Both the position numbers and the translations under genes were made by a program. From NCBI RefSeq assembly GCF_036864975.1, contig NZ_CP104311.1:317501-381500 (forward strand): DNA of 64,000 bases, read 5' to 3'. Shown here piece by piece: positions 5,169 to 27,312 of this stretch (position 1 is its first letter; every line of letters begins with the position of its first letter). A model generated the notes under the pieces. The model ran no database searches. It saw only the letters and a program-made list of their open reading frames with translations, and was not told where the DNA came from. This DNA comes from Methylococcus capsulatus. GTDB lineage: Bacteria; Pseudomonadota; Gammaproteobacteria; Methylococcales; Methylococcaceae.

Positions 5169-5172
5169 GCCG

Positions 5173-7776: not shown

Positions 7777-7842
7777 CCGGACCGTCACCCCCCGGTGATA
7801 CCGTTCTGGGCATCAGCACACCAAGGCGCCGAAAGTCCCAAG

Positions 7843-8730: not shown

Positions 8731-8889
8731 AACGGCGTCCTCGGATCTCGGGAACTCTCCCACCCTATCCGCGCGAGTAGTCAGAAATCCGCCCATGTGA
8801 GACGATCCGACCGTTCGCCGTCGGACATCCTCTCCGACAGCGTCTTCTTCGATGAACCTTAAGAATATGAAGGAAGGAGCCGAGATCCC

Positions 8890-10437: not shown

Positions 10438-10627
10438 CGAGACACGGTCCAAGAGACACCGGTCGCCCCGCACCGCCGCAAATGCCCCAGCCATCGATTC
10501 GCCCGGCGGCGCCCTAATCTTCAGCCGTTCGAGGAGGAAACGGGCAGTTCGGCACTGTATCGTGTTCCGAAGAGACCCCCTCGGGGCCGGAACAATTTTA
10601 TTCTTTGCATTCACGAAAAGACAGGAA

Positions 10628-10641
10628 TATTCTTCAGAATA
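10628..10641. promoter_or_regulatory. Candidate operator upstream of the Xre/RES pair
   Basis: TATTCT at 10628-10633 and AGAATA at 10636-10641 form a perfect 6-bp inverted repeat with a two-base centre, lying in an A/T-rich stretch 25-38 bases before the antitoxin start. Xre-type antitoxins normally repress their own promoter through such palindromes. Assignment is by position only. Confidence 0.4.
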
Positions 10642-10665
10642 ATTTGATACGAAAGAGTATCCGCC

Positions 10666-11046
10666 ATGCTGCACCCCGAATCCGCCCCCGCTACAGACCG
10701 CGCCCGTGTCCTCACCCAGGCGGTCGTCGAATCGGCCCGCCGCTTAGGGCTGGGCTCCAGCGATTTGAAAAACATCATCGGCGCCAGTCAGCCCACCGCA
10801 TCCCGCCTGCTGAACGGTCGTTACGTCCTGCCCGAAGGCGGCAAGGTATGGGAACTCGCCGTCCACTTCGTGCGTCTCTACCGCTCCCTGTCCTCCCTGG
10901 TCGGCGGCGACGACGAACTGGCTCGGAGCTGGCTGAAATCGGCGAACAAAGCCTTCGATGGTGAACGTCCGCTGGAGGTGATCAAACGCATCGACGGCCT
11001 CATCCATGCCTGTGAATACCTGGACGCCCACCGCGCTCGCCTCTGA
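10666..11046 (+). CDS. Xre/MbcA/ParS-type antitoxin
   Basis: The 126-residue protein has an N-terminal Xre-like helix-turn-helix (about 25-60; KNIIGASQPTASRLLNG) and a C-terminal MbcA/ParS toxin-binding domain (formerly DUF2384; ARSWLKSANKAFDGERPLEVI). Proteins of this form neutralise RES-domain toxins and repress their own operon. The downstream RES gene starts inside its 3' end (41-base overlap), which is typical of this toxin-antitoxin class. An A/T-rich palindrome lies in the promoter region. Confidence 0.88.
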   Translation: MLHPESAPATDRARVLTQAVVESARRLGLGSSDLKNIIGASQPTASRLLNGRYVLPEGGKVWELAVHFVRLYRSLSSLVGGDDELARSWLKSANKAFDGERPLEVIKRIDGLIHACEYLDAHRARL

Positions 11047-11731
11047 AGCATTCCCATGGCAGGGCACCGGATGGCGGGCAGTGGAAGCCCAGCATCGCGT
11101 CGCCACCATGCATCTGACGGCGGGCAGGCTGGACGATCAATCGCTACTGGAAGACATCCTCGACGAAGCGAAGCCCCCCCTCCCCGCCGCCGCCGAAGGT
11201 CTGCACTGGCTGCTGGCGACACCCTTCCGGTATTGGCCTCTGCCAGGCGGATCGCGGTTCCGGCGGAGCACCGATCCCGGCGTGTTCTATGGCGCAGAGG
11301 AAAGGAAAACGGCCTGCGCCGAATGCGGCTACTGGCGGCTCCGGTTCTGGCTGGACAGCGAAGGACTCTCGGACCGCTCCGCCACCGTCGAACTGACCCT
11401 GTTCGAATTCGCCGCCGCGGCCGACAAGGCCATCGACCTCTCCCGCCCGCCGCTGTCGTCCGACCGGGATGCCTGGACACACCCATCCGATTACTCGGCC
11501 ACCCAAACCCTTGCCGAGCATGCGCGGGATGCCGGCATCGAAACCATCCGCTACCAATCGGTCCGCGATCCCGGCGGATTCTGCCTGGCTTTGCTGACAC
11601 CAAAAGTTTTCAAATCAGCCCCCGAACCCTACCGGAACAGCCAGCAAACCTGGAACCTGCTGATTCAGCCTCCCACCCGGATCGTCTGGCAACGGCAATT
11701 GGACCGGGAGAGCTGGGTGTTCGAGTTCTAG
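11006..11731 (+). CDS. RES-domain toxin (NAD+ phosphorylase family)
   Basis: A 241-residue RES-family protein. RES toxins such as MbcT degrade NAD+ by phosphorolysis or hydrolysis. The family-defining residues are visible: Arg in GSRFRRSTDPGVFYGAEE, Glu in TACAECGYWR and Ser in IRYQSVRDPGGFC. It overlaps the Xre/MbcA antitoxin by 41 bases. The frame is full length with no disruption, so the pair is likely functional. NAD+ as substrate is inferred from the family. Confidence 0.88.
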   Translation: MPVNTWTPTALASEAFPWQGTGWRAVEAQHRVATMHLTAGRLDDQSLLEDILDEAKPPLPAAAEGLHWLLATPFRYWPLPGGSRFRRSTDPGVFYGAEERKTACAECGYWRLRFWLDSEGLSDRSATVELTLFEFAAAADKAIDLSRPPLSSDRDAWTHPSDYSATQTLAEHARDAGIETIRYQSVRDPGGFCLALLTPKVFKSAPEPYRNSQQTWNLLIQPPTRIVWQRQLDRESWVFEF

Positions 11732-11773
11732 CAAAGCATCGAACCTCACCAACGCAACTACAGCAGTGCCTCT

Positions 11774-12300
11774 TTAACTACGCGGATAGAGCCGCAGAGC
11801 TTGGAGCAGCCAGGATTGGCCATTCAAGCCACTTCGGACACGGCTCGTATTCCCGGCCTCAGAGAGGCCGGCGAACCAGGCGCGTTTTCGGCGAGGCACG
11901 ACAGCATCAGGCGATTCTGGCTGGCGTCCGCGTGTCACAATCCACCGATGGCCTGCACCAGGCCGTGGAGGGTGGAGAGCATGTGCTGAATCCGGGAGCG
12001 CAACACGGCCTGCCGGAATAGGCTCATCAGCTTGTAGGCGGGCATGGCAAAGCCCAAGGCCGCTTCGGTGGCCCAGAAGTCGCGCATGCTGAACGCGTCC
12101 AGACCGAAATCCGCCTTGAGTTCCTTGATTGCGGTTCTGTGCGGCAAAGCCGCATTCCGCTTCGCGGGACTGCCACAATCCGCCCTTCCCACCAGATCCC
12201 TCCCCTCGGCATGTCAAGCGTGGTCACAAACACCCTGTAGCGCCAGCCTTGAATGTCCGGATCGGCCGCACACAACTCCTGGGGGTCCATCGCAGGCTCC
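11774..12300 (-). mobile_element. Remnant of an IS1380-like transposase (C-terminal part, frameshifted)
   Basis: Reading the minus strand across three frames recovers pieces of a transposase C-terminus: GWRYRVFVTTLDMP (about 12250), then KELKADFGLDAFSMRDFWAT and AYKLMSLFRQAVLRSRIQHM (11935-12140), then a piece around PRRKRAWFAGLSEA. The KELKADFG and YR-rich segments are characteristic of IS1380 elements. The N-terminal DDE-bearing part is missing and at least two frameshifts separate the pieces, so it is dead. It marks the left edge of the defence island. Confidence 0.6.
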
Positions 12301-12473
12301 AGGGAGTGACCGGCGACGCCATCCCGAACGCCTCGTTACAAAGGGGGAAGCCCGGTCATTTACGAAGCACCTCGCATCCCCCTACCCCGGTCCGATGGGA
12401 CCTGATAGATTACAGCCTTTACCACTCAGACCGATTTTATGCGATCCAATCCATCTGCTTCAGGAGTCCGGTG

Positions 12474-12692
12474 ATGACTGAGCCTTGGGTATCCGTCGAG
12501 CAGCTCGTCGAGCATCTGGGCGTGACACGTGATTCGATCTACCGGTGGATTTCGCGCCGTGGGCTGCCGGCACACCGGGTGGGTCGCCTGTGGAAATTCA
12601 AGGTTTCCGAGGTGGATGAGTGGATACGCGGCGGTGGCGCGGATGAAGAAAAACACGGCGATGCGGCTCCGGCATCGCCGCGAAAAAAATAG
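12474..12692 (+). CDS. Small excisionase-like helix-turn-helix protein
   Basis: A 72-residue protein with one MerR/excisionase-like winged HTH (HTH_17): VSVEQLVEHLGVTRDSIYRW followed by the wing GLPAHRVGRLWKFKVSEVDEW, and a charged tail. The ATG at 12474 is chosen because the upstream open frame to 12129 has no family sequence and runs through the transposase remnant. A GTG at 12471 is an alternative. It sits 13 bases before mod and is probably the first gene of the defence operon, so it is a candidate regulator of the R-M genes. Function as activator or repressor is not known. Confidence 0.8.
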   Translation: MTEPWVSVEQLVEHLGVTRDSIYRWISRRGLPAHRVGRLWKFKVSEVDEWIRGGGADEEKHGDAAPASPRKK

Positions 12693-12705
12693 AGGGATGG
12701 TCTGA

Positions 12706-14340
12706 ATGCCCACACTCAACTGGATCGGCAAGGAAGCCGTCGTCAAACACCACAAGGAAGTGCCCTTCCGCCTGCTGGAGCCGGTGCCGGAACTCTCCTG
12801 CGGCCCGGCGGATACCGGGAACCTCATCGTGCAGGGTGACAACCTGCACGCGCTCAAGGCGCTGCTGCCCCGCTATGCCGGAAAGGTGAAGTGCATCTAC
12901 ATCGACCCGCCCTACAACACCGGCAACGAAGGCTGGGTGTACAACGACAACGTCAACAGCCCGGAGATTCGCAAGTGGCTGGGCGAGGTGGTCGGCAAGG
13001 AAGGCGAAACGCTGGATCGGCACGACCGCTGGCTCTGCATGATGTACCCGCGCTTGTTGCTGCTGAAACAGTTTCTGCGCGAGGACGGTGCGATCTTTGT
13101 GTCCATCGACGACAACGAGGTGGCGACGCTGCGGCTGTTGATGGATGAGGTTTTTGGGGCGAAGAATTTCGTGGCGACGGTTCTATGGCAGAAGGTCTAT
13201 TCGCCGAAGAACTCGGCACGCCATCTCTCCGAAGACCACGACTACATCGTGATTTATGCCGCCAAGGCCGACGCTTGGAAACCGAATCTCTTGCCGCGCA
13301 CGGAAGAACAGAATGCTGCGTACAAGAATCCTGACAAGGACCCGCGAGGCGTCTGGAAAACGAGCGATTTGTCGGCGCGAAACTATTACTCGGCGGGAAC
13401 GTACTCGATCAACTGCCCCTCTGGGCGAGTAATCGAAGCCCCGCCCAAGGGAATGTATTGGCGGGTTTCAAAGGAAAAGTTCGAGGAACTGGACCGCGAT
13501 AACCGCATCTGGTGGGGCAAGGATGGCAATGCCATTCCGCAGATCAAACGTTTCCTGCACGAGGTCAAGGACGGTCGGGTGCCGCAGACGATGTGGTTTT
13601 ATCAAGAGGTTGGCCACACTCAGGAAGGCAAGAAGGAACTGCTCGAACTGGTCGACTTCAACTCGTCCGACGACGTGTTCATCACGCCGAAACCCACCCG
13701 GCTCATTCAGCGCATCCTGCAAATCGCCACCGACAAGGACTCCCTCGTCCTCGACTCCTTCGCCGGTTCCGGCACCACCGGCCATGCGGTGCTGAAACAA
13801 AATGCCGAGGACGGCGGCAAGCGTCGCTTCATCCTCGTCGAAATGGACGAGAACATCGCCCAGAACGTCACCGACGAGCGGGTGCGCCGCGTCGCCAGCG
13901 GCTATACCAACGCCAAAGGGCAAACAGTAGAGGGCCTCGGCGGCGGCTTCCAGTTCTGCCGCCTCTCCGCCGAACCCTTGTTCGATGCCGATGGCCAGAT
14001 CCGCAGCGACGTGAAATTCGCGCAACTGGCCGAATTCGTCTGGTTTGTGGAAACCGGCACGGGTTTCCCTCACCCCCGGCCCCTCTCCCAGGGGGAGAGG
14101 GGAGAGCCATGTTCGCCGCTCTTGGGCATCCACGAGGGCCGTGCCATTTATCTGCTCTACAACGGCATCCTCAAGGACAAATCCGTGGCGGGCGGCAATG
14201 TGCTCACCGGCCCGGTGTTCGATGTACTGCCGAAGTTCGCCGGCCCGAAAGTGATCTACGCCGCCGCCAACCGCATGGGCGCCCGCGCCGCACGCGAGGG
14301 CATCACCTTCAAGCAGACCCCTTACGCGCTGGAAGTTTGA
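12706..14340 (+). CDS. mod: Type III-like site-specific adenine DNA methyltransferase (Mod)
   Basis: A 544-residue beta-class N6-adenine methyltransferase: catalytic motif IV DPPYNTG (residues 67-73) precedes the SAM-binding motif DSFAGSGTTGHAV (about 348-360). An upstream IVQGDNLHALKALLPR segment and the central variable region (about 150-300) for target recognition are typical of Mod subunits. It is paired with a Res gene downstream. Oddity: residues about 454-467 are encoded by a palindromic, REP-like sequence (PHPRPLSQGERGE) inserted in frame within the C-terminal region, immediately before SPLLGIHEGRAIYLLYNG. The frame stays open, so the enzyme may still work. Confidence 0.92.
   Translation: MPTLNWIGKEAVVKHHKEVPFRLLEPVPELSCGPADTGNLIVQGDNLHALKALLPRYAGKVKCIYIDPPYNTGNEGWVYNDNVNSPEIRKWLGEVVGKEGETLDRHDRWLCMMYPRLLLLKQFLREDGAIFVSIDDNEVATLRLLMDEVFGAKNFVATVLWQKVYSPKNSARHLSEDHDYIVIYAAKADAWKPNLLPRTEEQNAAYKNPDKDPRGVWKTSDLSARNYYSAGTYSINCPSGRVIEAPPKGMYWRVSKEKFEELDRDNRIWWGKDGNAIPQIKRFLHEVKDGRVPQTMWFYQEVGHTQEGKKELLELVDFNSSDDVFITPKPTRLIQRILQIATDKDSLVLDSFAGSGTTGHAVLKQNAEDGGKRRFILVEMDENIAQNVTDERVRRVASGYTNAKGQTVEGLGGGFQFCRLSAEPLFDADGQIRSDVKFAQLAEFVWFVETGTGFPHPRPLSQGERGEPCSPLLGIHEGRAIYLLYNGILKDKSVAGGNVLTGPVFDVLPKFAGPKVIYAAANRMGARAAREGITFKQTPYALEV
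14067..14106. repeat. REP-like palindromic repeat inside mod
   Basis: A C-rich leader (CCCTCACCCCCGGC) leads into a perfect 10-bp hairpin: CCCCTCTCCC at 14080-14089, loop AGG, and GGGAGAGGGG at 14093-14102. The pattern CCTCACCCC..CCCTCTCCCaGgGGGAGAGGG is a widespread dispersed intergenic palindrome in proteobacterial genomes. Here it lies within a coding sequence and keeps the reading frame. No second copy was noticed in this window. Confidence 0.75.
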
Positions 14341-14342
14341 CC

Positions 14343-14612
14343 ATGCCGACCATCAGCATGTTTTACGGAATTTTGGTGGCCATGTATGTGCTGGATACCG
14401 ACAAGCATCATCTTCCACACATTCATGTGCGTTACAACGAGTTCAAGGCGGTGATCCAGATTCCCGACGGTGAGGTGCTGGAAGGCGAATTGCCGACGCG
14501 GCAAATGAAACTGCTCCAGGCATGGATCGAAATTCACCGCGATGAACTGATGGCCGACTGGTACTTGGCCAGCACAGGACAGACGCCGTTCAAGATTGAT
14601 CCCTTGCGTTGA
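14343..14612 (+). CDS. DUF4160 family protein
   Basis: An 89-residue protein starting two bases after the mod stop. The family pattern is clear: PTISMFYGILVAMYVLDTDK, then HHLPHIHVRYNEFKAVIQIPDGEVLEG, then the helical WIEIHRDELMADW. DUF4160 proteins are nearly always encoded next to a DUF2442 protein, as here, and such pairs have a toxin-antitoxin-like size and layout, but no activity is established to my knowledge. Its position between mod and res is unusual. The start is fixed by the mod stop and the family N-terminus. Confidence 0.85.
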   Translation: MPTISMFYGILVAMYVLDTDKHHLPHIHVRYNEFKAVIQIPDGEVLEGELPTRQMKLLQAWIEIHRDELMADWYLASTGQTPFKIDPLR

Positions 14613-14623
14613 GGAGGATGGCA

Positions 14624-14872
14624 ATGACGCCCGATGTGGTTGAGGTAAAGGCGCTGCCCGAATACACGCTGCTCGTGCGTTTTGCCAATGGCGAGTTGCG
14701 CCGCTTCGACATGCGGCCGTATTTGCGTTATCCCGCCTTTGCCCACTTACAAGACCCGGCCTTATTCCAGAGCGCGCATGTGCAGCACGGCACGGTAGCG
14801 TGGACCAACGATATCGACGTCTCGCCGGACACGCTCTATCTTCGTGGCGAAACTGCAGGCGTAACGGCATGA
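14624..14872 (+). CDS. DUF2442 family protein
   Basis: An 82-residue partner of the preceding DUF4160 protein. Family features are VVEVKALPEYTLLVRFANGE, the LRRFDMRPYL segment and a C-terminal VAWTNDIDVSPDTLY. The start is decided by the ribosome site: GAGGAGG at 14611-14617 lies six bases before ATG 14624, whereas ATG 14618 directly abuts it. The stop TGA overlaps the res ATG (ATGA at 14869-14872), so res translation is probably coupled to this gene. Confidence 0.84.
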   Translation: MTPDVVEVKALPEYTLLVRFANGELRRFDMRPYLRYPAFAHLQDPALFQSAHVQHGTVAWTNDIDVSPDTLYLRGETAGVTA

Positions 14873-17571
14873 ACACGTTTTTGGCCAAAAAATACCAACA
14901 GCAGGTGCTCGACAGCGTGGAGACCTATTTCAAGGCTTGCCATGAATTGCCCTCGCCCTCGATTGCTTTCACCGCCACCACCGAACGCCTGTGGGGGCGC
15001 GGTTTGTCGTACAACCCGTTGTCGGGCTTTCCGACCGATATGCCGTATTTCTGCCTGCGCGTGCCTACCGGCGGCGGCAAGACCTGGCTGGCGGCGAAAA
15101 GCGTTCAACTCGTCAACACCCACCTGCTGCGCTGCGAGCACAGCGTGATTCTGTGGCTGGTGCCCAGCAAGCCGATTCGTGAGCAGACGATCAAGGCACT
15201 GAAGGATCGCAGCCACCCGTATCACGCCGCACTGCGAGAGGCGGGGCCGATCACGGTGCTTGATCTCGAAGAGGCCAAGAGCGTGACCCGCGCCACGCTG
15301 GACACCTCGACCACGGTGATCGTCGCCACGCGCCAGGCGTTTCAGGTGGAAGAGGAAGAGTGCCGCAAGGTGTATCAGTCCAGCGGCGCACTGATGCATC
15401 ACTTCGACAACCTGTCGCCATTGCTGCGCGACGAGTTGCTGACCGATGGCGAAGGCAGCGAACGTACCACGCCCTACTCGCTGGCCAACGTGCTGCGTCT
15501 GCGCCGGCCATTCGTGGTGGTGGACGAGGCGCACAACAGCCGCACCGAACTGGCCTTCGACATGCTGGCGCGCTTCCGCCCCAGCGGCGTGATGGAGCTG
15601 ACCGCCACGCCCGATCTGGAACGCACGCCCAGCAATGTGCTGCACAGCGTATCCGCCGCCGAGTTGAAGGCGGAAGAAATGATCAAACTGCCGGTGGTGC
15701 TGGAAACCGAGCCGAACTGGCAGCAGTGTCTGGCCGATGCCATCGCCCGGCGCGATGCCCTGCACAAGCTGGCGGATGAAGAACGCCGGGCAGGTGCGGC
15801 TTATCTGCGCCCGCTGGTGCTGATTCAGTCCGAACCGCGCCGCGCCGGCATCGAGACGCTGGATTTTGAGAAGGTAAAAAACGAGCTGATCGCCAACCAC
15901 GGCATTCCTGCCAGCGAAATCGTGGTGGCCACCGGCGAGGAAAAGGGGCTGGAGCAGATCGATGCCGATTACAAGCTGGGCATTGCCGACCCGGCCTGCC
16001 CGGTGAAGTTTGTCATCACTCAGAAGGCGCTGGCCGAGGGCTGGGACTGCCCGTTTGCTTACATTCTGGTGAGCATGGCTTCGCTATCGTCGGCCACGGC
16101 GGTGGAGCAGTTGCTCGGGCGTGTGTTGCGTCAGCCTGATGCGGCGCACCGGCAGGCGAAGGCATTGAACCAGTCCTATGCCTTCGTGGTGTCGCGCAAC
16201 TTTGCCGAGACGGCGGGCGCGCTGCGCGACCGTCTGGTGGCGGGCGCCGGGTTCGAGCGGCGCGAGGTCACGGAATTTGTCACTGCTGCCAAGGCCGAAC
16301 AGGCGCGGCTCGACCTGGAGGGCCACGCCGGGCGCGTGGTCGTGCGGCCGGTGGCGATTACCTTGTCCGAAAAGCCCGACCTGAAGAGCGTACCGAAGCC
16401 GGTACGTGACAAGGTGAGCTGGGACGGCAAGCTCAACCGGCTGACGATCAGCACACCGCTCACGGAGGACGAGGCCGAAGCGCTCAAGGCAGCGGTCACT
16501 TCGGAAACGGCGGCAGCGGCGATTGCGGAAGCCGCCGAAATCAGCCGCACCACGGCGATTGAGTTTTTCCAGACGCCCGCCGAAATGGGCGAGCGTTTCC
16601 GCGTGCCGCAGTTGGCCTTGCGCGTGCAGGGCGAGCTGGCGCTGTTTGATGACCCGGAGGTGCTGGAGTATCCGTGGGACCTCTCACCCTGCGATGCCGC
16701 GCCGACGGCCGATGACCTGACGGCACTGGGCGCGGCGCTGAAAGTGTCGGAAGGAGGCGAGATCGACATCGACGAGGGCGGCCACGTCGTGTCCCGCTTC
16801 CTGCCCGAATTGCAGCGCGATCTGGGTCTCGTCTATCAACCCGAAAACTGGGATGAGATTCGCATCGCCACCTGGCTGTGCCGCAACCTGCCAGAGCAGT
16901 CGCTGACCCATGCCAGCAAGCAGGCCTTTGTCGCGGCGTGGCTCACCGATCTACTTCGCCGGGATGGCTTCACGCTGGCACGCGCCAATCTTCAGAAGTT
17001 TCTGATCCGCAATCTGGTCGAGGCGCGCATCCGTGAACTGCGCAAGCAGGCCGTGGGCAAGGCATTCCAGCAGACGCTGTTTGGCATGGAAGCCGCCGAG
17101 CGCGTGGCGGTGACCGATCAATACGCCTTCGAGTTTCACGCCCAGGCTTACGCCCCCAGCCGCGACTACGATGGGCGCTTTGGCCATTTTGATTTCCGCA
17201 AGCACTTCTATGGGCGCATCGGCGACTTCGACAGCCAGGAGGAATTCGAGTGCGCCTGCCAGTTGGATAAGTGGGCGCAGCAGGGGCGTATCCGGTTCTG
17301 GGTGCGCAACCTGGTTCGGCGCGAAGGCTGCTCGTTCTTCCTGCAAAAGGCCGATGGCCGGTTCTATCCCGATTTTCTGTGCCAGTTGCCCGACTCGGCA
17401 GGCCAGCCGGGGCCGATTCTGGCGGTGGAATACAAAGGCGCGGACCGCTGGAAGGAGGCTGAAGATGACCGCCTGATCGGCGGCCTGTGGGCCAATCTGT
17501 CAGAAGGCCGGTGCCGGTTCGTGATGGTCAAAGACAAGCGGTGGGACTGGATCGAACCGCTCCTGACATGA
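14869..17571 (+). CDS. res: Type III-like restriction enzyme helicase-nuclease subunit (Res)
   Basis: A 900-residue SF2 helicase/translocase with nuclease. Motif I is RVPTGGGKTWLAA (about 65-77), motif II VVDEAHN (about 217), motif III ELTATPD, then the helicase C-terminal half with GWDCPFAYILVS and EQLLGRVLRQP (motif VI). Near the C-terminus YPDF (about 832) and AVEYKG (about 852) form a PD-(D/E)XK nuclease motif. With Mod it would cleave foreign DNA carrying unmethylated recognition sites. Start ATG 14869 gives the family N-terminus MNTFLAKKYQQQVLD. The stop overlaps the jetA start by four bases. Confidence 0.9.
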   Translation: MNTFLAKKYQQQVLDSVETYFKACHELPSPSIAFTATTERLWGRGLSYNPLSGFPTDMPYFCLRVPTGGGKTWLAAKSVQLVNTHLLRCEHSVILWLVPSKPIREQTIKALKDRSHPYHAALREAGPITVLDLEEAKSVTRATLDTSTTVIVATRQAFQVEEEECRKVYQSSGALMHHFDNLSPLLRDELLTDGEGSERTTPYSLANVLRLRRPFVVVDEAHNSRTELAFDMLARFRPSGVMELTATPDLERTPSNVLHSVSAAELKAEEMIKLPVVLETEPNWQQCLADAIARRDALHKLADEERRAGAAYLRPLVLIQSEPRRAGIETLDFEKVKNELIANHGIPASEIVVATGEEKGLEQIDADYKLGIADPACPVKFVITQKALAEGWDCPFAYILVSMASLSSATAVEQLLGRVLRQPDAAHRQAKALNQSYAFVVSRNFAETAGALRDRLVAGAGFERREVTEFVTAAKAEQARLDLEGHAGRVVVRPVAITLSEKPDLKSVPKPVRDKVSWDGKLNRLTISTPLTEDEAEALKAAVTSETAAAAIAEAAEISRTTAIEFFQTPAEMGERFRVPQLALRVQGELALFDDPEVLEYPWDLSPCDAAPTADDLTALGAALKVSEGGEIDIDEGGHVVSRFLPELQRDLGLVYQPENWDEIRIATWLCRNLPEQSLTHASKQAFVAAWLTDLLRRDGFTLARANLQKFLIRNLVEARIRELRKQAVGKAFQQTLFGMEAAERVAVTDQYAFEFHAQAYAPSRDYDGRFGHFDFRKHFYGRIGDFDSQEEFECACQLDKWAQQGRIRFWVRNLVRREGCSFFLQKADGRFYPDFLCQLPDSAGQPGPILAVEYKGADRWKEAEDDRLIGGLWANLSEGRCRFVMVKDKRWDWIEPLLT

Positions 17572-19046
17572 CACTCGACTTCGCCGCTCTCGACGCCCTG
17601 CGTACCCGCCACCCTGCCTGGCGGCTGCTGCGTTCGGACCATGCGCCGCTGGTGGCGAGCTTTCTGCACCGCGTATTCGTGGCGCCCAATGTGCGCGTGA
17701 TGAGCGAGGCCGATCTGGCCGAGGCGCTGGAGGACGAGCTGTTCGCCTTGCGCGAGCAGTGGGGATCGGAGGCGTACCCCAAGGGCGCGCAGGACTACCT
17801 GAACGACTGGGCCGCGCCCGACAAGGGCTGGCTGCGTAAGTTCTACAAGCCGGGCACGGACGAGGCGCAGTTCGACCTCACGCCGGCCACGGAAAAAGCC
17901 ATCGCCTGGCTGGCGTCGCTGACCGAGCGACCGTTCGTCGGCACCGAATCGCGCCTGCTCACGCTGTTCGCGCTGCTGGAGCAGATCAGCGCCGGCACCG
18001 AGGCCGACCCGATCAAACGCGTAGCCGATCTGCGCAAAAAGCGCGACGAGCTGGACGCCGAGATCGCCCGCGTGCTGGCGGGCGATGTTCCACTGCTGGA
18101 CGACACGGCGGTCAAGGACCGCTTTCAGCAGTTCCAGCAACTGGCGCGCGAGCTGCTGGCCGACTTCCGCGAGGTGGAACACAACTTCCGTCTGCTCGAC
18201 CGGAAGGTACGCGAGAAGATCGCGCTGTGGGAAGGCGCCAAGGGTGCGCTGCTCGACGAAATCATGGGCGAGCGCGATGCCATCGGCGACTCCGACCAGG
18301 GCAGGAGCTTCCGCGCCTTCTGGGACTTCCTGATGTCCAGCCGGCGGCAGGAGGAGTTTTCCGCGCGGCTGGATCAGGTGCTCAAGCTTCCCGCCGTCGC
18401 GCAGCTTGCGCCCGAGCCACGCATCCGGCGCGTGCATCACGACTGGCTGGAGGCGGGCGAACACACGCAGCGCACGGTGGCGATGCTCTCACAGCAGCTG
18501 CGCCGTTTCCTCGACGACCGCACCTTTCTGGAAAACCGCCGCATCCTGGACTTGCTGCGCGGCATCGAGAGCAAGGCGCTGGCATTGCGCGAGGCCATGC
18601 CCTCTAGCACTGTGATGCACCTCGACGCCATGGGCGCGGACATCGAACTGCCGCTGGAGCGGCCGCTGTTTACGCCGAGCCTGAAACCGCGCCTGGCCGA
18701 TTTGGCGCTCGTGGCCTTTGATGCCGACATCGATACCGCGCGCCTGTTCGACCAGATCGTGGTGGACAAGGCGCGCCTGCGGGCTGCCGTGCAACGCGCA
18801 CTGCGGCACCAGCCGCAGATCACGCTGCGTGAGCTGCTGGAGACCGAGCCTCTGCGACAAGGACTCGCCGAACTGGTGGCCTATCTGGAACTGGCCCATA
18901 GCGGGGACGGCGGCGATGCCCTGGAGGGCTTGCGCGCTCTGGTCGATGAGGCCGTGATCGAGTCGATCCGGTGGCAGGCCTGCAACGCAGTGGGTGAAGC
19001 GGTGACGCGCGAGGCGCGCCTGCCCCGCGTGATTTTTACGCGCTGA
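17568..19046 (+). CDS. jetA: Wadjet anti-plasmid system protein JetA (DUF3375)
   Basis: A 492-residue DUF3375 protein, the MukF-like kleisin subunit of type I Wadjet. The N-terminus MTLDFAALDALRTRHPAWRL and the helical central region with RVADLRKKRDELDAEIARVL are typical. It binds JetB and bridges the JetC heads in the SMC-like complex. The ATG at 17568 overlaps the res stop (ATGA), so this gene is translationally joined to the restriction gene. A small gap with a ribosome site separates it from jetB. Confidence 0.9.
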   Translation: MTLDFAALDALRTRHPAWRLLRSDHAPLVASFLHRVFVAPNVRVMSEADLAEALEDELFALREQWGSEAYPKGAQDYLNDWAAPDKGWLRKFYKPGTDEAQFDLTPATEKAIAWLASLTERPFVGTESRLLTLFALLEQISAGTEADPIKRVADLRKKRDELDAEIARVLAGDVPLLDDTAVKDRFQQFQQLARELLADFREVEHNFRLLDRKVREKIALWEGAKGALLDEIMGERDAIGDSDQGRSFRAFWDFLMSSRRQEEFSARLDQVLKLPAVAQLAPEPRIRRVHHDWLEAGEHTQRTVAMLSQQLRRFLDDRTFLENRRILDLLRGIESKALALREAMPSSTVMHLDAMGADIELPLERPLFTPSLKPRLADLALVAFDADIDTARLFDQIVVDKARLRAAVQRALRHQPQITLRELLETEPLRQGLAELVAYLELAHSGDGGDALEGLRALVDEAVIESIRWQACNAVGEAVTREARLPRVIFTR

Positions 19047-19073
19047 CGGTGTCCGGCGCAGGGAGAGAATAAC

Positions 19074-19751
19074 GTGAACGACGCACTGCACGAGGACGAT
19101 TCTGTTGATGCGCAGCCCACCACGCTACCGCCGGCGCCCGAGTTGTCGCAGCTGATGATTCACCTGCTCAAGGGCGTGCTTTACCGCGACGACGACGAGC
19201 GGCTGTGGGCGAGCCTGCTGCGCCTGCAGGCGCGGGTGCGGGAGCAGGCCGCCGTGCTGCTGCTCGATCTGGTGCTGGACGAGGCGGAAGGGTACGCCTT
19301 CTTGAAGAGCCGCCCGGACCCGGACGAATCGGAGGAGGCGCCGCGCTTGCCGCGGCTCGTCGCACGCCGGCCGCTTTCCTACCCGGTGAGCCTGATGCTG
19401 GCACTGCTCAGGAAGCGCTTGGCCGAGTTCGACGCCGGCGGCGGCGATACCCGGCAAGTGCTCTCGCGCGAGGACATCGCCGATCTCATACGGGTGTTCC
19501 TGCCCGAGGGCACAAACGAGGCTCGCTTGATCGACCAGGTGGACGCGACCATCGCCAAGGTGGTCGAGCTGGGATTTCTGCGGCGGCTCAAGCCTGCCGC
19601 CGGCAGCGCGCAGGACCGAGGCCAATACGAGGTGCGCCGCATCCTGAAGGCTTTCATCGACGCGCAGTGGCTGGCGGATTTCGACGCGCGGCTGGAGGTC
19701 TATCGCGTGGCGCTGTCGGGCGGCCCAGACCGGGAGAAGGCCAATGTTTGA
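19074..19751 (+). CDS. jetB: Wadjet system protein JetB (DUF4194)
   Basis: A 225-residue DUF4194 protein, the MukE-like winged-helix (KITE) subunit of Wadjet. It starts with GTG at 19074 behind a GGGAGAG ribosome site. Family segments include [21 protein letters not shown] and the wing-helix region [18 protein letters not shown], ending with [19 protein letters not shown]. The 3' end overlaps jetC by eight bases. Confidence 0.9.
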
Positions 19752-22700
19752 AGCGGCGACGCTCGGGCTGGACTTCGTGGCCGACGACAGCCGGGTAGGA
19801 TTTCGGCTGCAGCGGCTGGAAGTGCTGAACTGGGGCACCTTCGACAAGCGCGTGTGGCGCTACGAACTCGACGGGCGCAACGGTTTGCTCACCGGCGACA
19901 TCGGTTCGGGCAAGTCCACACTGGTCGATGCCGTCACCACCTTGCTGGTGCCGGCGCACCGGGTGGCCTATAACAAGGCCGCCGGCGCGGATGCCCGCGA
20001 GCGGTCCTTGCGCTCCTATGTATTAGGCTACTACAAGAGCGAGCGCAACGAGGTGACGGGCAACGCGAGGCCCGTCGCGCTGCGCGATGCGTCGAGCTAC
20101 TCGGTCATCCTCGGCGTCTTCCGCAACGAGGGCTATGACCAGGCGGTGACGCTGGCCCAGGTCTTCTGGCTGAAGGACCCGCAGGGCGCACCTGCACGCC
20201 TGTTCGTGACTACCGAGCGGGCTCTCACCATCGCCGATGACTTCAGCGGCTTTGGCAGTGACATCACCGCCCTGCGCAAGAAGCTGCGGGGCGCGGGCTG
20301 CGAGCTGTTCGACAGCTTCCCGCCCTACGGGGCATGGTTCCGCCGGCGCTTCGGCATCGAGCACGAGCAGGCCCTGGAGCTCTTCCATCAGACCGTATCG
20401 ATGAAATCGGTGGGCAACCTCACCGACTTCGTGCGCTGCCACATGCTGGAACCCTTCGATGTGGGCAGCCGCATCGAAGCGTTGATCCGCCACTTTGATG
20501 ACCTGGACCGGGCGCATCAGGCGGTGCTCAAGGCCAAGCGGCAAGTGGACTTGCTCGCGCCCCTGGTCGAGGACGGCGCGCGCCACCGGCTGCTCGCGGC
20601 CGAGATCCAGGGCTGGCGGGATGCGCGCGATCAGCTTCGACCGTATTTCGCCCGGCTCAAGGGCGAACTGCTGGACCGCCGACTCGGCTTGCTGGCGGAC
20701 GATGCGGCCCGGCTCGATGCGCAGATCGAGCGCCTGGACGCGCAGCGTGAGACCGGGCGCGTTGAGATTGGCCGCCTCGAGCGGGCCTTGCGCGACAACG
20801 GCGGCGACCGCCTGGAGGAGCTGGCGGCTGAGATCCGCCGTCTGGATCAGGAGAAGGTGCAACGTCAGCACAAAGCCGACCGCTACCGGGACTTGCTGGC
20901 CCGCATCGATGAGGCGGCGCCAGCCGATGTAGCCGGTTTCCTCGCCCAGCAGCAGAGCATCGCCCAGCGTGCCGAAGACTTGCGTGAGCGCATTGCCGAC
21001 TTGGACAACCGCGAGCGCGAAGAGGATTTCACTTTCCGCAAGGGCAGTGAAGAGCAAGCCGCCTTGTCCGACGAGATCGACAGCCTCCAGCGGCGCAAGA
21101 GCAACATTGACGCCGCCCAGATCCGCATCCGCGATGCGCTGTGTTCGGCGCTGGCGATCGGTGAGGGCGAACTGCCTTTCGCGGGCGAACTCATCCAGGT
21201 GCGTGACGACGAGCGCGATTGGGAGGGGGCGGCCGAGCGGTTGCTGCGCGGATTTGGTCTCTCGCTGCTGGTGCCGGACGCCCACTACAAGGCGGTGGCG
21301 GACTGGGTGGACCGCCAGCATCTGGGCGCCCGGCTGGTGTACTTTCATGTGCGTCCACGCAAGGCCGCGCAGGGCACCGTTCTGCATCCGCAGTCGCTGG
21401 TGAAGAAGCTCGTCATCAAGCCGGATTCACCACACTACGAGTGGCTGGAGCAGGAGCTTCGAAACCGCTTCGACGTGGCCTGCTGCGACAGCGGGGAGCA
21501 GTTCCGCCGCGAGGCGCGCGCCATTACGCGCGCAGGGCAAATCAAGGACCCGAGCGGTCGCCACGAGAAGGACGACCGCAGCCGGATCGACGACCGCAGC
21601 CGCTATGTGCTCGGCTGGAGCAACGCCGACAAGCTGCGGGCCTTGCGCGACCAGCGGGAGCGTCTGGAGGCAGAGCTGGCCCAACGCGCACAGCGCATCA
21701 GCGAGATCAGCCAAGCGCGCAACGAACTGCGGGGCCGGCTCGATGCACTTAGCAAGCTGGAAGAGTTCACGCACTTTGCGGACATCGACTGGATGAGCCT
21801 GGCCCGTCAGATTGCGGTACTCACCGAGGAACGCGCGCGGCTGGAAGCCGCATCCGATACGCTGCAAGAGTTGGGGCGCCAGCTCAAGGCCGCGCAAGAT
21901 CGGCTTGCGGAGACAGAACGCAAGCGCGACGAGGCCCGGGACAAGCGAGCGGCGGTGGCCACCAAGCAAGCTACGGCACAAGACCTGCGGAATCACACGG
22001 TCCGCATCTGGGAGGGCGCGCCGCTGACCGAAGTGCAGATCGAGCATCTGGATGGCTGGCGTTCGCAGGCGCTGGGCGAACATCAACTGTCGGTCGAGTC
22101 CTGCGACAACCGCGAGCAGGAGGTGCGCAAGTGGCTGCAGGAGCGCATCGACGCGGAGGACAAGCGCCTGGCCCGTCTGACCGAGCGCATCGTCAATGCC
22201 ATGCGCGGCTTCAAGGAGGAGTTCAAGGCCGAGACCGTCGAGATGGACGTGAGCCTGGCGGCGCTGCCGGAGTACGAGCGGATGCTCACCGGATTGAAGT
22301 GCGACGACCTACCGCGATTCGAGGCGCGCTTCAAGGAGCTGCTCAACGTCAACACGATCAACGAGATCGCCAACTTCAACGCCCAGCTCGCCCGCGAGCG
22401 CGAGACGATCAAGGAGCGCGTCGACTTCATCAACCAGTCGCTCCAAGCCATCGACTACAACCCCGGCCGGTACATCAAGCTGGTGGCGCTGCCAAGCCCG
22501 GATGCGGAGATCCGCGACTTCCAGCAGGATTTGCGGGCGTGCACCGAGGGCGCGATGACGGGCTCGGCCGACGAACAGTATTCGGAAGCCAAGTTCCTGC
22601 AGGTCAAGGCCATCATCGACCGCTTCCGTGGCCGTGAAGGGCTGTCGGACGCCGACCGGCGCTGGACCGCCAAGGTCACCGACGTACGCAACTGGTTCCT

Positions 22701-23118
22701 GTTCTCGGCCAGCGAGCGCTGGCGCGCCGATGGTGCCGAGCACGAGCACTACTCGGACTCAGGCGGGAAGTCGGGCGGTCAGAAGGAGAAGCTGGCCTAC
22801 ACCGTGCTGGCCGCGAGCCTGGCCTACCAATTCGGGCTGGAGTGGGGCGCCGTTCGTTCGCGGTCGTTCCGCTTCGTCGTGATCGACGAAGCTTTCGGGC
22901 GCGGGTCGGACGAGTCGGCGCAGTACGGTTTGCGCCTGTTCCAGCAGCTCAACCTGCAGCTGTTGATCGTCACGCCGCTGCAGAAGATCCACATCATCGA
23001 GCCCTTCGTGGCCAGTGTGGGCTTCGTGCACAACGAGGGCGGGCGCGACTCACGGCTGCGCTGCCTCACGATCGACGAATACCGGACACAGAAGGCCGCG
23101 GGAGGGCCTGCCAGGTGA
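19744..23118 (+). CDS. jetC: Wadjet system SMC-like ATPase JetC
   Basis: A 1124-residue MukB-like SMC ATPase, the motor that extrudes DNA loops on small circular DNA. Walker [11 protein letters not shown] is at about residues 50-59. Long coiled-coil arms flank a hinge-like globular region (about 470-620). The ABC signature region [20 protein letters not shown] is near residue 1006 and Walker [15 protein letters not shown] near 1045, so ATP hydrolysis should be intact. Overlaps: eight bases with jetB and four with jetD. DNA loop extrusion and closed-circle sensing are known for homologues, not shown here. Confidence 0.93.
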
Positions 23119-24293
23119 GCTGGACCACGCCGGCCGACCTGCGCGCGCAGGTGCAGCGCCTGTGGGACCGCGGCGACTTGCTGCAGGCCACCGTGTCGGA
23201 CACCCTCACCTGGCCCCTGCGCCTGAACCTGAAGTCCCCCTTGGCTTCCGACCTGTCCGACCGTTTCGAGGCGGTGCGCGAATGGGCGCACGCCATCGCC
23301 AATACCCCTCAGGTTCGCATCGAATGGCGGGAGTGGAATCACCGCGTCCAGGGCAAGCAACGGCTTCCGGCGGCCGTCTGGATCGATACCCTGCAGGACG
23401 CCTTGGCTTTCATCGGCAAGAGCAGACAGGCGCAACGCTTCGAGGCCTTGTGGCGACAGACGGCGGTTATGCAGCCGGCCTTGCTGGCGTGGCTGTCGCG
23501 GCGCCCGATCCGGGCGCTGGACCAGGCCGACCGCTGGGAGCGTCTGCTGGCCGTGGTCGCCTGGCTGCAGGCCCATCCCCGTCCGGCCATGTACCTGCGC
23601 CAGGTCGACGTGCCTGGGGTGGACAGCAAGTTCATCGAGGCCCACCGAGGCGTGTTGGCCGAGCTGCTGGACCTGGCGCTGCCACCAGAAGTCATCGATC
23701 TTGACGCGACCGGCGTCGTGCAGTTCACGCGGCGCTACGGCTTCCTCGACAAACCGGTGCGCATCCGTTTCCGCTCGCTCGATGCCACAGTGCCCTCTCT
23801 GCCGGGGTGCGCCGGCTTGCCCGACATCACTCTGGATGCCGCCAGCTTCGCGTCACTGGCGCTGCCTATCGAGCAAGTTTTCATCACTGAGAACGAGACC
23901 AACTTCCTCGCCTTCCCGGCGGCGGCGCGAGCCATCGTCATCTTTGGCGCCGGCTACGGCTGGGCGTCGTTGGCAGAGGCATCCTGGTTACACCGCTGCC
24001 GGCTGCACTACTGGGGCGACATCGACACCCATGGCTTTGCCATCCTGGATCAGTTGCGGGAGCACTTCCCGCAGACAGAGTCTGTCCTGATGGATGCGCA
24101 AACCTTACTGGCACATCGTGCGCACTGGGGGGAGGAACCCGACCCGGTCCACCACGATTTGTTTCGTCTTACTCAGGCGGAGGCAAAAATCTACGACGAT
24201 CTTCGATGGGACCGCATACGACCCAGGCTAAGGCTGGAGCAAGAGCGTGTGGGATTCGGCTGGTTGAACGAACGGCTCCGGAAGTTACGGTGA
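23115..24293 (+). CDS. jetD: Wadjet nuclease subunit JetD (DUF3322/DUF2220)
   Basis: A 392-residue protein with an N-terminal DUF3322 region and a C-terminal DUF2220 Toprim-like domain related to topoisomerase VI subunit A. The Toprim acidic residues are visible: Glu in [13 protein letters not shown] (about 258) and the DxD of [12 protein letters not shown] (about 300). JetD cuts plasmid DNA after the complex has reeled in the whole circle (known for homologues). The GTG start at 23115 overlaps the jetC stop (GTGA). This completes the four-gene type I set in the usual jetA-B-C-D order. Confidence 0.9.
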
Positions 24294-24488
24294 AGTCCGC
24301 CGGTGAGTGGTCGCAGGTCTATGGGACGAAGCGGCGGCCACGTGATGGCCGGCCGCAGGTACGAGGTGCTGGCCGCGGCTCCCGGGGCCGGATGAAACGA
24401 GACCGCACGTGGGATTGTTCTCTGCCCCCGGAAAACCCGCCATTGCGGATTCGGTGGGCAGCGATGACACGGGGCATTGCAGCCCTCG

Positions 24489-25646
24489 TCAGACGACCGC
24501 GACGCGATTGCGCCCGTTCTGCTTGGCGTGGTAGAGCGCGCGATCGGCACTGTGCTTGAGCAGGGACAAATCGTAGGGTGGCCGGTCGATACAGGTGACG
24601 CCGATGCTCACGGTGAGTGATATGGCTTCTTCGCCGTAGCGGAAGCCGGCGTGCATCGTCGCGAGGCGCAGGCGGTCGGCGATGCGCTGTGCCTGTTCCT
24701 GCGTGGTCGCCGGCAACAGAACACCGAATTCCTCGCCGCCGTAGCGGCAGAACAGATCGCGGTGCCGCAGGCTTTCTTCCATGGTCTCCGCAACCCGGAC
24801 AAGGGCGGCATCGCCGGCGGCATGACCGTGCCGATCATTGACCTGCTTGAAATGATCGATGTCGATCATGAGCAACGAGACCGGCTCCCGCTTGCTGCGC
24901 GCCCGAAGCAGTTCATCGGTGGCGAGGTTTTCGAACACTCGCCGGTTATAGATCCGCGTGAGCGAATCGAACGAGGCCAATTGATGCAGTTCGGCGTTGA
25001 GCTCCTCGGCGACGATCAGTCCGAAACAGAGAGAACCCAAGACGTTCCCGACCAGCATGGCGGAATACGTCAATTGCTGCACCCAGTTTTCGTCCATGGG
25101 ATGGACTATCGGTGCGCCCAGGATGAGAGGATTTACCGCACGTATCGCCAAAACCACGCTGATTGCGAGCGCCAGGACACCGGTGACCCGGTAGATCGAC
25201 CGGCCAGAAGGGGGAGCCGGACGGAGCAGAGCGGATGCGATCATGAAGAACACTGCAGCGGCCCATGCGCTGTTGGTGCTGATGCGGAGTTTGTCGTAAC
25301 CTGCGTAGAGGGTGTAGACGTTACTGACTGCGGTCAAGACGAAAACGCCAAGCAGTGCGAACTTGCTGTAGGCACGCTCCCGGAGTTCTTGCACCGCGAC
25401 GAAAACCAGGAGAGTTCCGCCGATCGCTAGCGTGACCGCCCCACCCAACGCGACCGGCTCCGGTACCAGCGCTCGCCCGGCCAGGATGAAAAGTGCGAAA
25501 TTCATCCCCGTCATCAACCCGCCCAGCGCCCACGAATGCATGGCTCGGGTGATCCGGGCGGGATATTGCGGAGCGACCAGCAGAATCACGCCGGCCTTGC
25601 CTACCGACGCCAGCGTCAGAAGGGTGTAGAGGGTGTAGGGATCCAT
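24489..25646 (-). CDS. Membrane-bound diguanylate cyclase (GGDEF protein)
   Basis: Makes cyclic di-GMP at the inner membrane. The 385-residue protein has an N-terminal multi-span membrane domain (about 1-215, at least six hydrophobic segments) and a C-terminal GGDEF domain. The active site reads GGEEF, and five residues upstream lies RHRD, matching the RxxD inhibitory product-binding site, so feedback control is likely intact. The ATG at 25646 (MDPYTLYTLL) is chosen because the further upstream frame is not hydrophobic and lacks similarity. The sensory domain is not a family I recognise. It is convergent with jetD. Confidence 0.9.
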   Translation of the reverse strand: MDPYTLYTLLTLASVGKAGVILLVAPQYPARITRAMHSWALGGLMTGMNFALFILAGRALVPEPVALGGAVTLAIGGTLLVFVAVQELRERAYSKFALLGVFVLTAVSNVYTLYAGYDKLRISTNSAWAAAVFFMIASALLRPAPPSGRSIYRVTGVLALAISVVLAIRAVNPLILGAPIVHPMDENWVQQLTYSAMLVGNVLGSLCFGLIVAEELNAELHQLASFDSLTRIYNRRVFENLATDELLRARSKREPVSLLMIDIDHFKQVNDRHGHAAGDAALVRVAETMEESLRHRDLFCRYGGEEFGVLLPATTQEQAQRIADRLRLATMHAGFRYGEEAISLTVSIGVTCIDRPPYDLSLLKHSADRALYHAKQNGRNRVAVV

Positions 25647-26081
25647 ATCAGCCCGGATAAGGAGCGCTTGCAGAGGAAACGCCCCGTCAGCCTCGCGCCT
25701 CCGGCAGGCCACAAATTCGACCGCGGCGAAATGCGCGGAAACCGGCTCACCGCTTTCCTGGAAGCCTTGCCGGCCGAAAAAGGCCGCCTCACAGAGGGCC
25801 TGTTCGGATTTCCGAAGTTTGAAGCAGGTGCCGACACGATGGGCAAGATAGAGAGCATTGGCGGAAAGGTTGTTGCCGGAAGGCTCGATGACACACGGCG
25901 AAGCAACACCGTTTTCGGCGCCGGGAGACAGCCGACGCATCGACCTAAGTGTAGCCGGTTCGAAGCTGCCGGGCGATCATGCCGCGCCCCTGAGGAGTAT
26001 TCGGTGTAGGATGGACCACGTTCCCGGCCGGTCCTTGAGCCCGGTTTCGGCATGTCCTCATCTACGGCCCATGGAGAGCTC
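25647..26081. other. Intergenic region without a recognised gene
   Basis: This 435-base gap lies between the divergent diguanylate cyclase and small lipoprotein genes. Open frames exist on both strands but have no recognisable family sequence or ribosome sites. It presumably holds both promoters; no convincing -35/-10 pair was picked out. Confidence 0.5.
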
Positions 26082-26438
26082 ATGAAAGCCCTGATCGCGG
26101 TTTACACAGCTTTGATGCTTTCCGGCTGCGGGGTCGTGCTACCGGCCAAGCACAATTCCAGCGATCTCGATAAGCTCCAAACCGGCATGACGGAACAACA
26201 GGTCGACCAGGTGCTCGATTCCCATTACGTCACGCTGCATGAAGGAGAAACAGCGGAAGGCAGGAACACCGTGGTCCGGTTATATGATCTGTACGGCAGA
26301 AACACGGCCGTCTGGAACCTGCTGCTCGGTCTTCCGACCTTCACCGTCACCTGGTGGCTCGTACCGGACACCAAGGCTTACGAACTGGTCTTCGTCGATC
26401 ATAAACTGCAACGATGGGCTCTCGATGAGCCGGAGTGA
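26082..26438 (+). CDS. Small SmpA/OmlA-like lipoprotein
   Basis: A 118-residue predicted lipoprotein: MKALIAVYTALMLSGCGVVL with lipobox LSGC, cleavage before Cys16. The segment LDKLQTGMTEQQVDQVLDS resembles the start of the SmpA/OmlA (BamE-like) domain, where the 'G-M-T/S-xx-V' turn is characteristic. It is too different to be BamE itself. The ATG at 26082 follows GGAGAG at good spacing. A small membrane protein gene follows 24 bases downstream, probably in the same transcript. Confidence 0.75.
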   Translation: MKALIAVYTALMLSGCGVVLPAKHNSSDLDKLQTGMTEQQVDQVLDSHYVTLHEGETAEGRNTVVRLYDLYGRNTAVWNLLLGLPTFTVTWWLVPDTKAYELVFVDHKLQRWALDEPE

Positions 26439-26462
26439 GGGGCGGACTTTGAGGAGGTTTCC

Positions 26463-26621
26463 ATGCCGAACGAACCGAACCTGCAGGAGCACACGAAGAA
26501 GGTTTTCAAAGAAACGGTCGACATCTACCGCAAGGACCTCATCGCTCTCCTGAACAACCCGCTGCCCATCGCCATCGCAGTGGCGGTGATCGTATTGTTC
26601 CTGCTCGCGATCGGATCGTGA
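26463..26621 (+). CDS. 52-residue single-span membrane protein
   Basis: A short open frame with a strong GAGGAGG ribosome site five bases before the ATG. The product is MPNEPNLQEHTKKVFKETVD onward: about 30 charged, probably helical residues, then one hydrophobic span (PIAIAVAVIVLFLLAIGS) at the C-terminus. The layout resembles a tail-anchored small protein. No family is recognised. Codon use is ordinary for the region and the ribosome site is strong, which supports a real gene. Confidence 0.65.
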   Translation: MPNEPNLQEHTKKVFKETVDIYRKDLIALLNNPLPIAIAVAVIVLFLLAIGS

Positions 26622-26739
26622 GAGCCGACCGGCCGACCGTGAGGCCGGATTCGGTCAAGCGTTCTCCCCGCCGATCCGGCTGGACTTCATGCTCGGTGAC
26701 AGTCTTCACCTTCACCGCCAACTTTGCGCGCCAAGTCAC

Positions 26740-26768
26740 TTGCATGTTGCTAGCTGCATGACTATAGT
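26740..26768 (+). promoter_or_regulatory. Sigma-70-type promoter of the HxlR-KAS II operon
   Basis: TTGCAT at 26740-26745 and TATAGT at 26763-26768 are separated by exactly 17 bases. The spacer holds GCTAGC and a repeat of TGCATG. Transcription would start only a few bases before the ATG at 26779, leaving a very short leader. An HxlR regulator often represses its own promoter; the repeated TGCATG could be part of its operator, which is a guess. Confidence 0.55.
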
Positions 26769-26778
26769 CGCTTTCATC

Positions 26779-27312
26779 ATGCAACGAACAAGTTTCAAGA
26801 ACATGGAATGCCCGGCGGCCCGCGCCCTGGAATGTGTCGGCGAATGGTGGAGCATGCTGATCCTGCGCGATGCGTTCCAGGGGCTTACCCGATTCGACGA
26901 ATTCCAGGCCAGCCTCGGGATCGCGCCCAATATCCTGACCCGACGGCTGAAACATCTGACCATGAATGGTTTATTGGAGCGCCGCATGTACAACCCACGT
27001 CCACCCCGATACGAATACCTTCTGACGGCCAAAGGCCGTGATTTCTTCCCGGTACTGGCGGCGATGTTGGCCTGGGGCAATAAGCACCTGACACCCGAAG
27101 GGATATCGGTCCAACTGGCGGACCGCCGTTCCGGCGAACGCGTCGAACCGGTTTTGGTGGATGGCCACACCCTGGCGCCGATCACCCCGGAGAATGTGAT
27201 GCTGCAGCCAGGACCCGCGGCGAGTCCACAGGTCCGCCTGCGCGCCCGCTTGTCGCGGGCCCGGTCGGCAAACACCGCTCCGCCGGACCAGAACACGGAA
27301 AAACCGGCATGA
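26779..27312 (+). CDS. HxlR-family transcriptional regulator
   Basis: A 177-residue winged-helix regulator. The HxlR signature is clear: MECPAARALECVGEWWSMLIL, then FQGLTRFDEFQASLGIAPNILTRRLKHL and the wing LLERRMYNPRPPRYEYLLT. HxlR proteins respond to redox or small electrophiles through cysteines; one Cys (in MECPAARALECVG, two residues) is at the N-terminus as in many members. The ATG at 26779 is preferred because it lies just after the promoter; another ATG at 26758 lies before the -10. The stop overlaps the KAS II start (ATGA). An unusually long basic, Pro/Ala-rich tail follows about residue 125. Confidence 0.85.
   Translation: MQRTSFKNMECPAARALECVGEWWSMLILRDAFQGLTRFDEFQASLGIAPNILTRRLKHLTMNGLLERRMYNPRPPRYEYLLTAKGRDFFPVLAAMLAWGNKHLTPEGISVQLADRRSGERVEPVLVDGHTLAPITPENVMLQPGPAASPQVRLRARLSRARSANTAPPDQNTEKPA

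Follow-up and report, generated by a model that had tools for sequence, protein, structure and literature searches.

A type III-like restriction-modification array of Methylococcus capsulatus with a DhiTA-type pair in its mod-res gap and a Wadjet system at its 3' end: a probable modular defence cassette

Type III restriction-modification (R-M) systems methylate adenine on one strand and cut DNA at two inverted sites. CreTA, an RNA toxin-antitoxin pair, guards CRISPR-Cas. The present analysis concerns a 64,000-nucleotide stretch of the Methylococcus capsulatus genome (contig NZ_CP104311.1, positions 317,501 to 381,500 of the forward strand; hereafter the window), in which nine genes of one orientation (window positions 12474-24293) comprise a type III-like R-M system, a gene pair corresponding to the toxin-antitoxin pair DhiTA, and a complete type I Wadjet system (jetABCD). 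The host genome is a single 3.43-Mb contig. Wadjet cleaves small circles independently of sequence, sensing their shape and size (PMC10586767). In Dickeya dadantii, dhiTA is co-transcribed with the toxin gene first; overproduction of DhiT slows growth in both Dickeya and E. coli, and growth is not reduced when the antitoxin is co-expressed (PMC8198452). A DUF4160/DUF2442 pair of Thermus increases plasmid persistence, and a plasmid without only the second gene of the pair could not be introduced (PMC12724237).

The array is probably a modular composite defence cassette, in which a type III R-M system carries a DhiTA-type pair in the gap between mod and res and a type I Wadjet system at its 3' end, the whole probably being read together. 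Gene content, motifs, purifying selection and tight junctions carry this reading, together with the exchange of modules and the presence of both plug-in positions in further genomes. The original prediction had described nine co-oriented genes, and their coordinates and junctions were all confirmed. It had also proposed a type III-like R-M system and a complete Wadjet system in one co-oriented array, on which Pfam (all nine proteins), PADLOC (eight, the DUF4160 protein being left out) and motifs agree.

All nine genes lie on the + strand. The first encodes a small HTH_17 protein (12474-12692; Pfam HTH_17, 3e-15), which belongs with the R-M half. It is followed by mod, a type III-like DNA methyltransferase gene (12706-14340; PADLOC MTase_III, 3e-224; Pfam N6_N4_Mtase), and by dhiT, encoding the DUF4160 toxin of the DhiTA-type pair (14343-14612; Pfam DUF4160; NCBIfam toxin_DhiT equivalog), and dhiA, encoding the DUF2442 antitoxin (14618-14872, with an ATG also at 14624; Pfam DUF2442). 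The res gene (14869-17571; PADLOC REase_III, 1e-120; Pfam ResIII) encodes a type III restriction subunit with a helicase and a PD-ExK-like motif, 900 amino acids (aa) long when counted from the ATG at 14869. The Wadjet half consists of jetA (DUF3375; 17568-19046; PADLOC JetA1, 7e-217; Pfam DUF3375), jetB (DUF4194; GTG start; 19074-19751; PADLOC JetB1, 1e-94; Pfam DUF4194), jetC, encoding an SMC-like ATPase (19744-23118; PADLOC JetC1, E=0), and jetD (DUF3322 and JetD_C; GTG start; 23115-24293; PADLOC JetD1, 1e-153; Pfam DUF3322 and JetD_C). A pattern search found DPPY and then FAGSGTTG in Mod, PTGGGKT, DEAH, PDF and EYKG in Res, the Walker A/B and signature motifs in JetC, and the acidic motifs ITENE and DID in JetD.

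The genes are closely packed. Gaps measure 13 nt between the HTH gene and mod, 2 nt between mod and the DUF4160 gene, 5 nt between the DUF4160 and DUF2442 genes and 27 nt between jetA and jetB; jetB and jetC overlap by 8 nt, and jetC and jetD by 4 nt (GTGA). The dhiA stop and the res start share a 4-nt ATGA, as do the res stop and the jetA start (17568-17571), the latter just as originally predicted. The ratio of nonsynonymous to synonymous substitution (dN/dS) is 0.025-0.28 for every window gene with a homologue in L080, L085, L086, L100 or G037 (loci are given as L and genomes as G numbers), showing that the genes with homologues in these loci are under purifying selection.

The toxin-antitoxin slot is the part of these type III operons most worth following. 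The res-family sample consists of the best 80 matches, at 79 loci. Slot content was tallied over 86 stretches (the 79 res loci, six others and the window), leaving out L036 and L041 (copies of L111 and L124) and the other distant res loci of the order search; 12 stretches without the mod end in view were dropped, which left 74. Content was assigned by tblastn to representatives, and + strand open frames of selected loci were scanned with Pfam. The mod-res gap was at most 60 nt in 37 of the 74 loci and held an insert in the other 37. A complete toxin-antitoxin-type pair was found in 25 of the 37 filled slots, belonging to eight types: a zeta-like kinase with a 72-aa protein (8), DhiTA (6), Unstab_antitox/ParE (4, one of them shared with DhiTA), MNT/HEPN (3), a PIN pair (2), and one each of a PemK-like pair, DUF433/DUF5615 and RHH/DUF3368. 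Some of these assignments involve Pfam matches below the cut-off, namely DUF2281 (L095), RHH and DUF3368 (L042) and an MNT protein (L124), and the zeta-like kinase with its 72-aa partner, which has no family match, is putatively a toxin-antitoxin pair. DUF5615 also matched PIN_10, and the DUF3368 toxin is presumably PIN-like. The PIN, DUF5615 and DUF3368 toxins thus are or may be PIN-like, so that the toxins are of about six kinds. The remaining 12 slots held single ORF6N, Schlafen-type, RhuM or Bro-N genes (5), a partial pair (3; L039, L102 and L107) or unassigned content (4).

Every assigned insert lies on the strand of the operon. Matches to toxin-antitoxin-type families numbered 57 in 27.3 kb of slots, all on that strand, against 5 for the same families in 964.3 kb of flanks, a comparison that favours the slots because the query families were derived from them. 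Four of the five flank matches lie just before mod in L093 and L109, where slot-type families stand directly upstream of mod instead of between mod and res. The minus strand was checked as well, and ten longer frames there in filled slots matched no Pfam family. In 23 of the 37 filled slots, an overlap of exactly 4 nt with res is possible for the last inserted gene; the same test, which accepts any in-frame start near the res start, gave 91 of 1823 (5%) for pseudo-starts inside res. A res tree of the 54 loci whose state was assigned requires at least 27 changes of slot content and 19 switches between filled and empty, counts that may be too high because support in the tree is low; a sign test on strand takes the 19 changes as independent gains, which need not hold. 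Slots were filled in 5 of 17 loci with res below 54% identity, against 32 of 57 for the others. Wide gaps were also inspected in six distant type III loci (res about 36-38% identical): five held pairs (L044, L045, L046, L049 and L061; that of L044 was judged solely by its likeness to L046) and the sixth, L053, a GIY-YIG gene. Since the pair member adjacent to res varies by type, there is no conserved coupling of res specifically to the antitoxin. These comparisons suggest that the mod-res gap may act as a socket that takes different toxin-antitoxin pairs. Within the text available from the open-access literature searched, there was no description of toxin-antitoxin pairs between mod and res, nor of res joined to jetA.

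In the window, the slot holds a DUF4160 toxin gene with its DUF2442 partner directly downstream. The DUF4160 protein scored 100.1 bits against the NCBIfam DhiT equivalog, narrowly passing the cut-off of 100, and the DUF2442 protein had no match among the NCBIfam models. Both genes had been listed in the original prediction, their match to DhiTA being overlooked; with it, the array has three modules, not two. The two proteins might instead regulate the restriction enzyme or serve as its accessory subunits. Their place inside the operon, the overlap of dhiA with res, the marginal DhiT score and the lack of an NCBIfam match for DhiA would all fit such a role. However, relatives have ParE-like, PIN, MNT-HEPN, PemK-like or zeta-like genes at the same position, and in half of the tallied loci the gap there does not exceed 60 nt, so no specific protein is needed between mod and res; we consider accessory subunits improbable and a toxin-antitoxin pair the better reading.

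The second plug-in position is the 3' end of res. Among the 79 best-matching res loci, jetABCD lies directly downstream of res in four, from Tepidicella (L085), Betaproteobacteria (L086), Accumulibacter (L095) and Burkholderiales (L133), with res-jetA gaps that as a set measure 9, 18, 18 and 24 nt. G021, from another genus of the same family, has the order HTH-mod-DhiTA-second pair-res-jetABCD with the same 4-nt ATGA at the res-jetA junction, and G077 has the reverse order, jetABCD followed by mod-DUF4160-DUF2442-res. HTH_17 homologues directly precede mod in 11 of the 79 loci, and also in G021. The sister species G017 retains a decayed relic, consisting of pieces of mod, res, the res-jetA junction (ATGA) and jetD, which adjoins the same downstream flank as the array in the window. 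In another sister genome, G003, the stretch 10442-25834 is missing from the matching site: by blastn, about 100 bases separate the match to 5001-10441 from that to 25835-29226, and parts of 10442-25834 match other places in G003. Together, adjacency of res and jet genes involves three jet lineages and both orders. The adjacency is thus not peculiar to this genome, a possibility that the original prediction had named as counting against it and that L085, L086, L095, L133 and G021 rule out; it recurs in these five other genomes, plus, reversed, in G077. Conservation of the junction held only in part, as the adjacency recurs and, among the linked loci, the ATGA itself occurs only in the window, G021 and the G017 relic. 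In a search of plasmids, res had matches in 54 records, none reaching 60% identity, and jetA had matches in 7. As for other neighbours of jetABCD, Pfam identifies genes for a ParA-like ATPase and a Schlafen AlbA_2 protein directly upstream of it in G061 (L070), and the frames upstream of jetA in G077 (L064) equal those two genes in length.

What else adjoins the 3' end of res bears on the meaning of the overlap. In other loci it overlaps or abuts an McrB-like AAA gene, rhuM (2 loci), pyrF, ruvB and others. The McrB-like cluster follows res in six loci (L080, L081, L083, L088, L100 and L132) and is commoner there than jetA in this sample; its proteins have about 840 aa in most loci and 455 in L100, and an AAA_5/McrB-like part was seen in the one member scanned. 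Translational coupling of res to jetA, originally thought unusual, is therefore nothing special, res being as tightly joined to the McrB-like gene, rhuM, pyrF and ruvB, and equally tight junctions with other genes rule out that such an overlap is peculiar to jetA. The res-jetA overlap thus shows how compact the array is, and not that the genes share a function.

The two halves also differ in their relatives. The jetA genes of the window, L085, L086, L095 and L133 fit one clade (approximately unbiased test, p-AU 0.513), and one clade for res of the same five loci is rejected (p-AU 1.7e-11), so that units of the window's type do not share one res lineage; the res trees have low support, with bootstrap not settled. 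G021 and G077 carry jet lineages other than that of the window. The res of the window is closest to that of loci without jet genes (L080, 95% aa identity, synonymous divergence dS 0.33). Compared with L086, dS is 0.32-0.39 for jetA to jetC, 0.88 for jetD, 0.80 for res and 0.88 for mod. Along the unit, the nearest relatives are L080 and L100 for res, and L086 and L133 for the jet genes. These data indicate that the R-M and jet halves have been exchanged rather than co-inherited, and the single co-evolving compound unit of the original prediction does not survive the contrast between the res and jetA tests. Beside this, Mod in L069 (G003) and L142 is 75-80% identical to that of the window and is paired with a Res only about 40% identical.

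Adjacency was also compared across whole genomes. Fifty genomes with this res, which represent 50 of the 79 loci, were searched whole: ten had jetA at E<=1e-40, in eight of these it was full length at 62-90% identity, and in four of the eight it adjoined res. Adding six genomes of the window's order, the window included, to these eight gave 14 genomes that combine this res family with a full-length jetA of at least 60% identity, in 7 of which the two are adjacent. A search of the order found 22 genomes with both res and jetA, 16 of them with only a distant type III res; adjacency among these was 0 of 16 with any jetA match and 0 of 8 under the same jetA rule. Fisher tests gave p = 0.0017 against the 16 (0.0036 without the window) and p = 0.022 against the 8 (0.046 without the window). 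The 14- and 16-genome groups were read from tables by eye, and in drafts res and jetA on different contigs may in fact be adjacent.

Several observations weigh against a cassette. jetA stands beside res in only 4 of the 79 best-matching loci. G037 belongs to the same genus and carries jetABCD from the window's clade (85% nucleotide identity) elsewhere, without this res. With the window-type jet clade counted once, adjacency falls to 3 of 10, for which p is 0.046 in the comparison with the 16 and 0.22 in that with the 8. The contrast is suggestive only, because it was framed post hoc and many of the genomes are in draft form. Tight junctions are no proof of joint function, since res abuts housekeeping genes too. 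As regards the pair, dhiTA gave no better plasmid maintenance in the E. coli tests of PMC8198452, where only ccdAB2 did, and the Thermus pair had no effect in E. coli (PMC12724237).

These points bear on the chief rival explanation, a chance neighbourhood in a defence island, where R-M, toxin-antitoxin and Wadjet genes came to stand side by side and were compacted with no joint role. The independent swapping of modules, the equal packing of res against pyrF and ruvB in other genomes, the four of eight genomes whose full-length jetA (at least 60% identity) lies outside the stretch around res, and the p of 0.22 under one jetA rule with related loci counted once would all be expected of it. On the other hand, three different jet lineages show the adjacency, which occurs in either order, two species have the unit or its relic at one site, and 7 of 14 contrasts with 0 of 16 or 0 of 8. 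Chance is a serious but unlikely explanation, and a modular cassette that is probably read together remains the one we favour.

A true joint system, in which Wadjet spares DNA marked by Mod methylation or both act in one pathway, was also considered, as the original prediction had raised such sparing. Physical linkage is all that speaks for it. Wadjet senses the shape and size of circles and cuts them independently of sequence (PMC10586767); sparing by methylation is therefore unlikely, Mod is not expected to steer Wadjet, and marking by Mod was rejected as unsupported. The string 'methyl' is absent from the main text of that paper, and in 48 of the 70 jetA-bearing genomes of the order search nothing matched this res at E<=1e-20. 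A joint system is thus very improbable.

As a modular cassette, the array would work through its parts, each by its own known mechanism; for restriction and Wadjet this follows from what is established about the families. Transcription would probably run from before the HTH gene through jetD, with all modules co-transcribed. Mod would methylate host sites and Res would cut DNA with unmethylated sites; JetABC would extrude loops on small circular DNA, which JetD would cut regardless of methylation. DhiT would be restrained by DhiA and set free if expression of the operon failed. The pair may thereby anchor the operon by addiction or give a last-resort growth arrest, which is the least secure step, as the published plasmid-maintenance results disagree. 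A bolder proposal, which we offer tentatively and think doubtful in full, is that the mod-res gap is a docking site for interchangeable toxin-antitoxin guards, whose toxin would be freed on loss of the operon or its inhibition by phage, and which with Wadjet would form one layered, self-protecting unit, the guard being swapped as phages counter it. If the inserted pairs do guard restriction, toxin-antitoxin guarding would extend from CRISPR to restriction. The mod-res gap may also be read as a way to find new toxin-antitoxin types.

Scans for signals of transcription covered 12000-24700. They detected no sigma-70-like site, but shuffled sequence would be expected to give just 1.0, so that this result is uninformative. 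Terminator-like sites numbered 14, against 9.6 (sd 3.2) in shuffles, with a weak one at the jetA end (19014-19031). A repeat search yielded no lead.

Mod itself carries in-frame inserts. In the loop after FVWFxET, these resemble dispersed repeats (e.g., HPRPLSQGERG) and occur at the same place in the window, L062, L089, L094, L101, L102, L109 and L130, that of L130 being about 137 aa long. Among the 35 motif-bearing mod proteins (57 aligned), ten have inserts of more than 8 aa, eight of which are repeat-like by eye. The closest mod proteins lack the insert of the window (about 14060-14110, + strand; peptide HPRPLSQGERGE). Upstream of the HTH gene, 11863-12276 matches several places in G037 and is probably an insertion-sequence remnant.

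Compared with described systems, each module is familiar. The HTH protein matches the mad1 profile of MADS; the other seven of the eight proteins scanned (the DUF4160 protein standing outside the scan) had no mad match, and the locus is not MADS. As in type III R-M systems, an N6_N4_Mtase Mod and a ResIII helicase Res with a C-terminal nuclease motif are co-oriented; unlike them, the window has mod and res separated by a toxin-antitoxin pair, and its Mod contains a repeat-like insert. The pair resembles DhiTA of Dickeya dadantii, and the similar pair of Thermus plasmids, in having the DUF4160 toxin first and the DUF2442 antitoxin second, and differs in lying within a restriction operon and in its overlap with res. 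With CreTA, another toxin-antitoxin pair, it shares a place inside a defence locus; CreTA consists of RNAs, whereas here several kinds of protein pairs occur at one position. The Wadjet half has the type I genes in order (jetA DUF3375, jetB DUF4194, jetC SMC-like, jetD DUF3322/Toprim), except that the start of jetA and the stop of a type III res gene overlap. Defence genes usually cluster as neighbours, whereas here the mod-res gap and the 3' end of res accept interchangeable modules. The modules are known and the composite is unusual; the link between res and jetA is real, recurrent and modular, rather than that of a compound machine.

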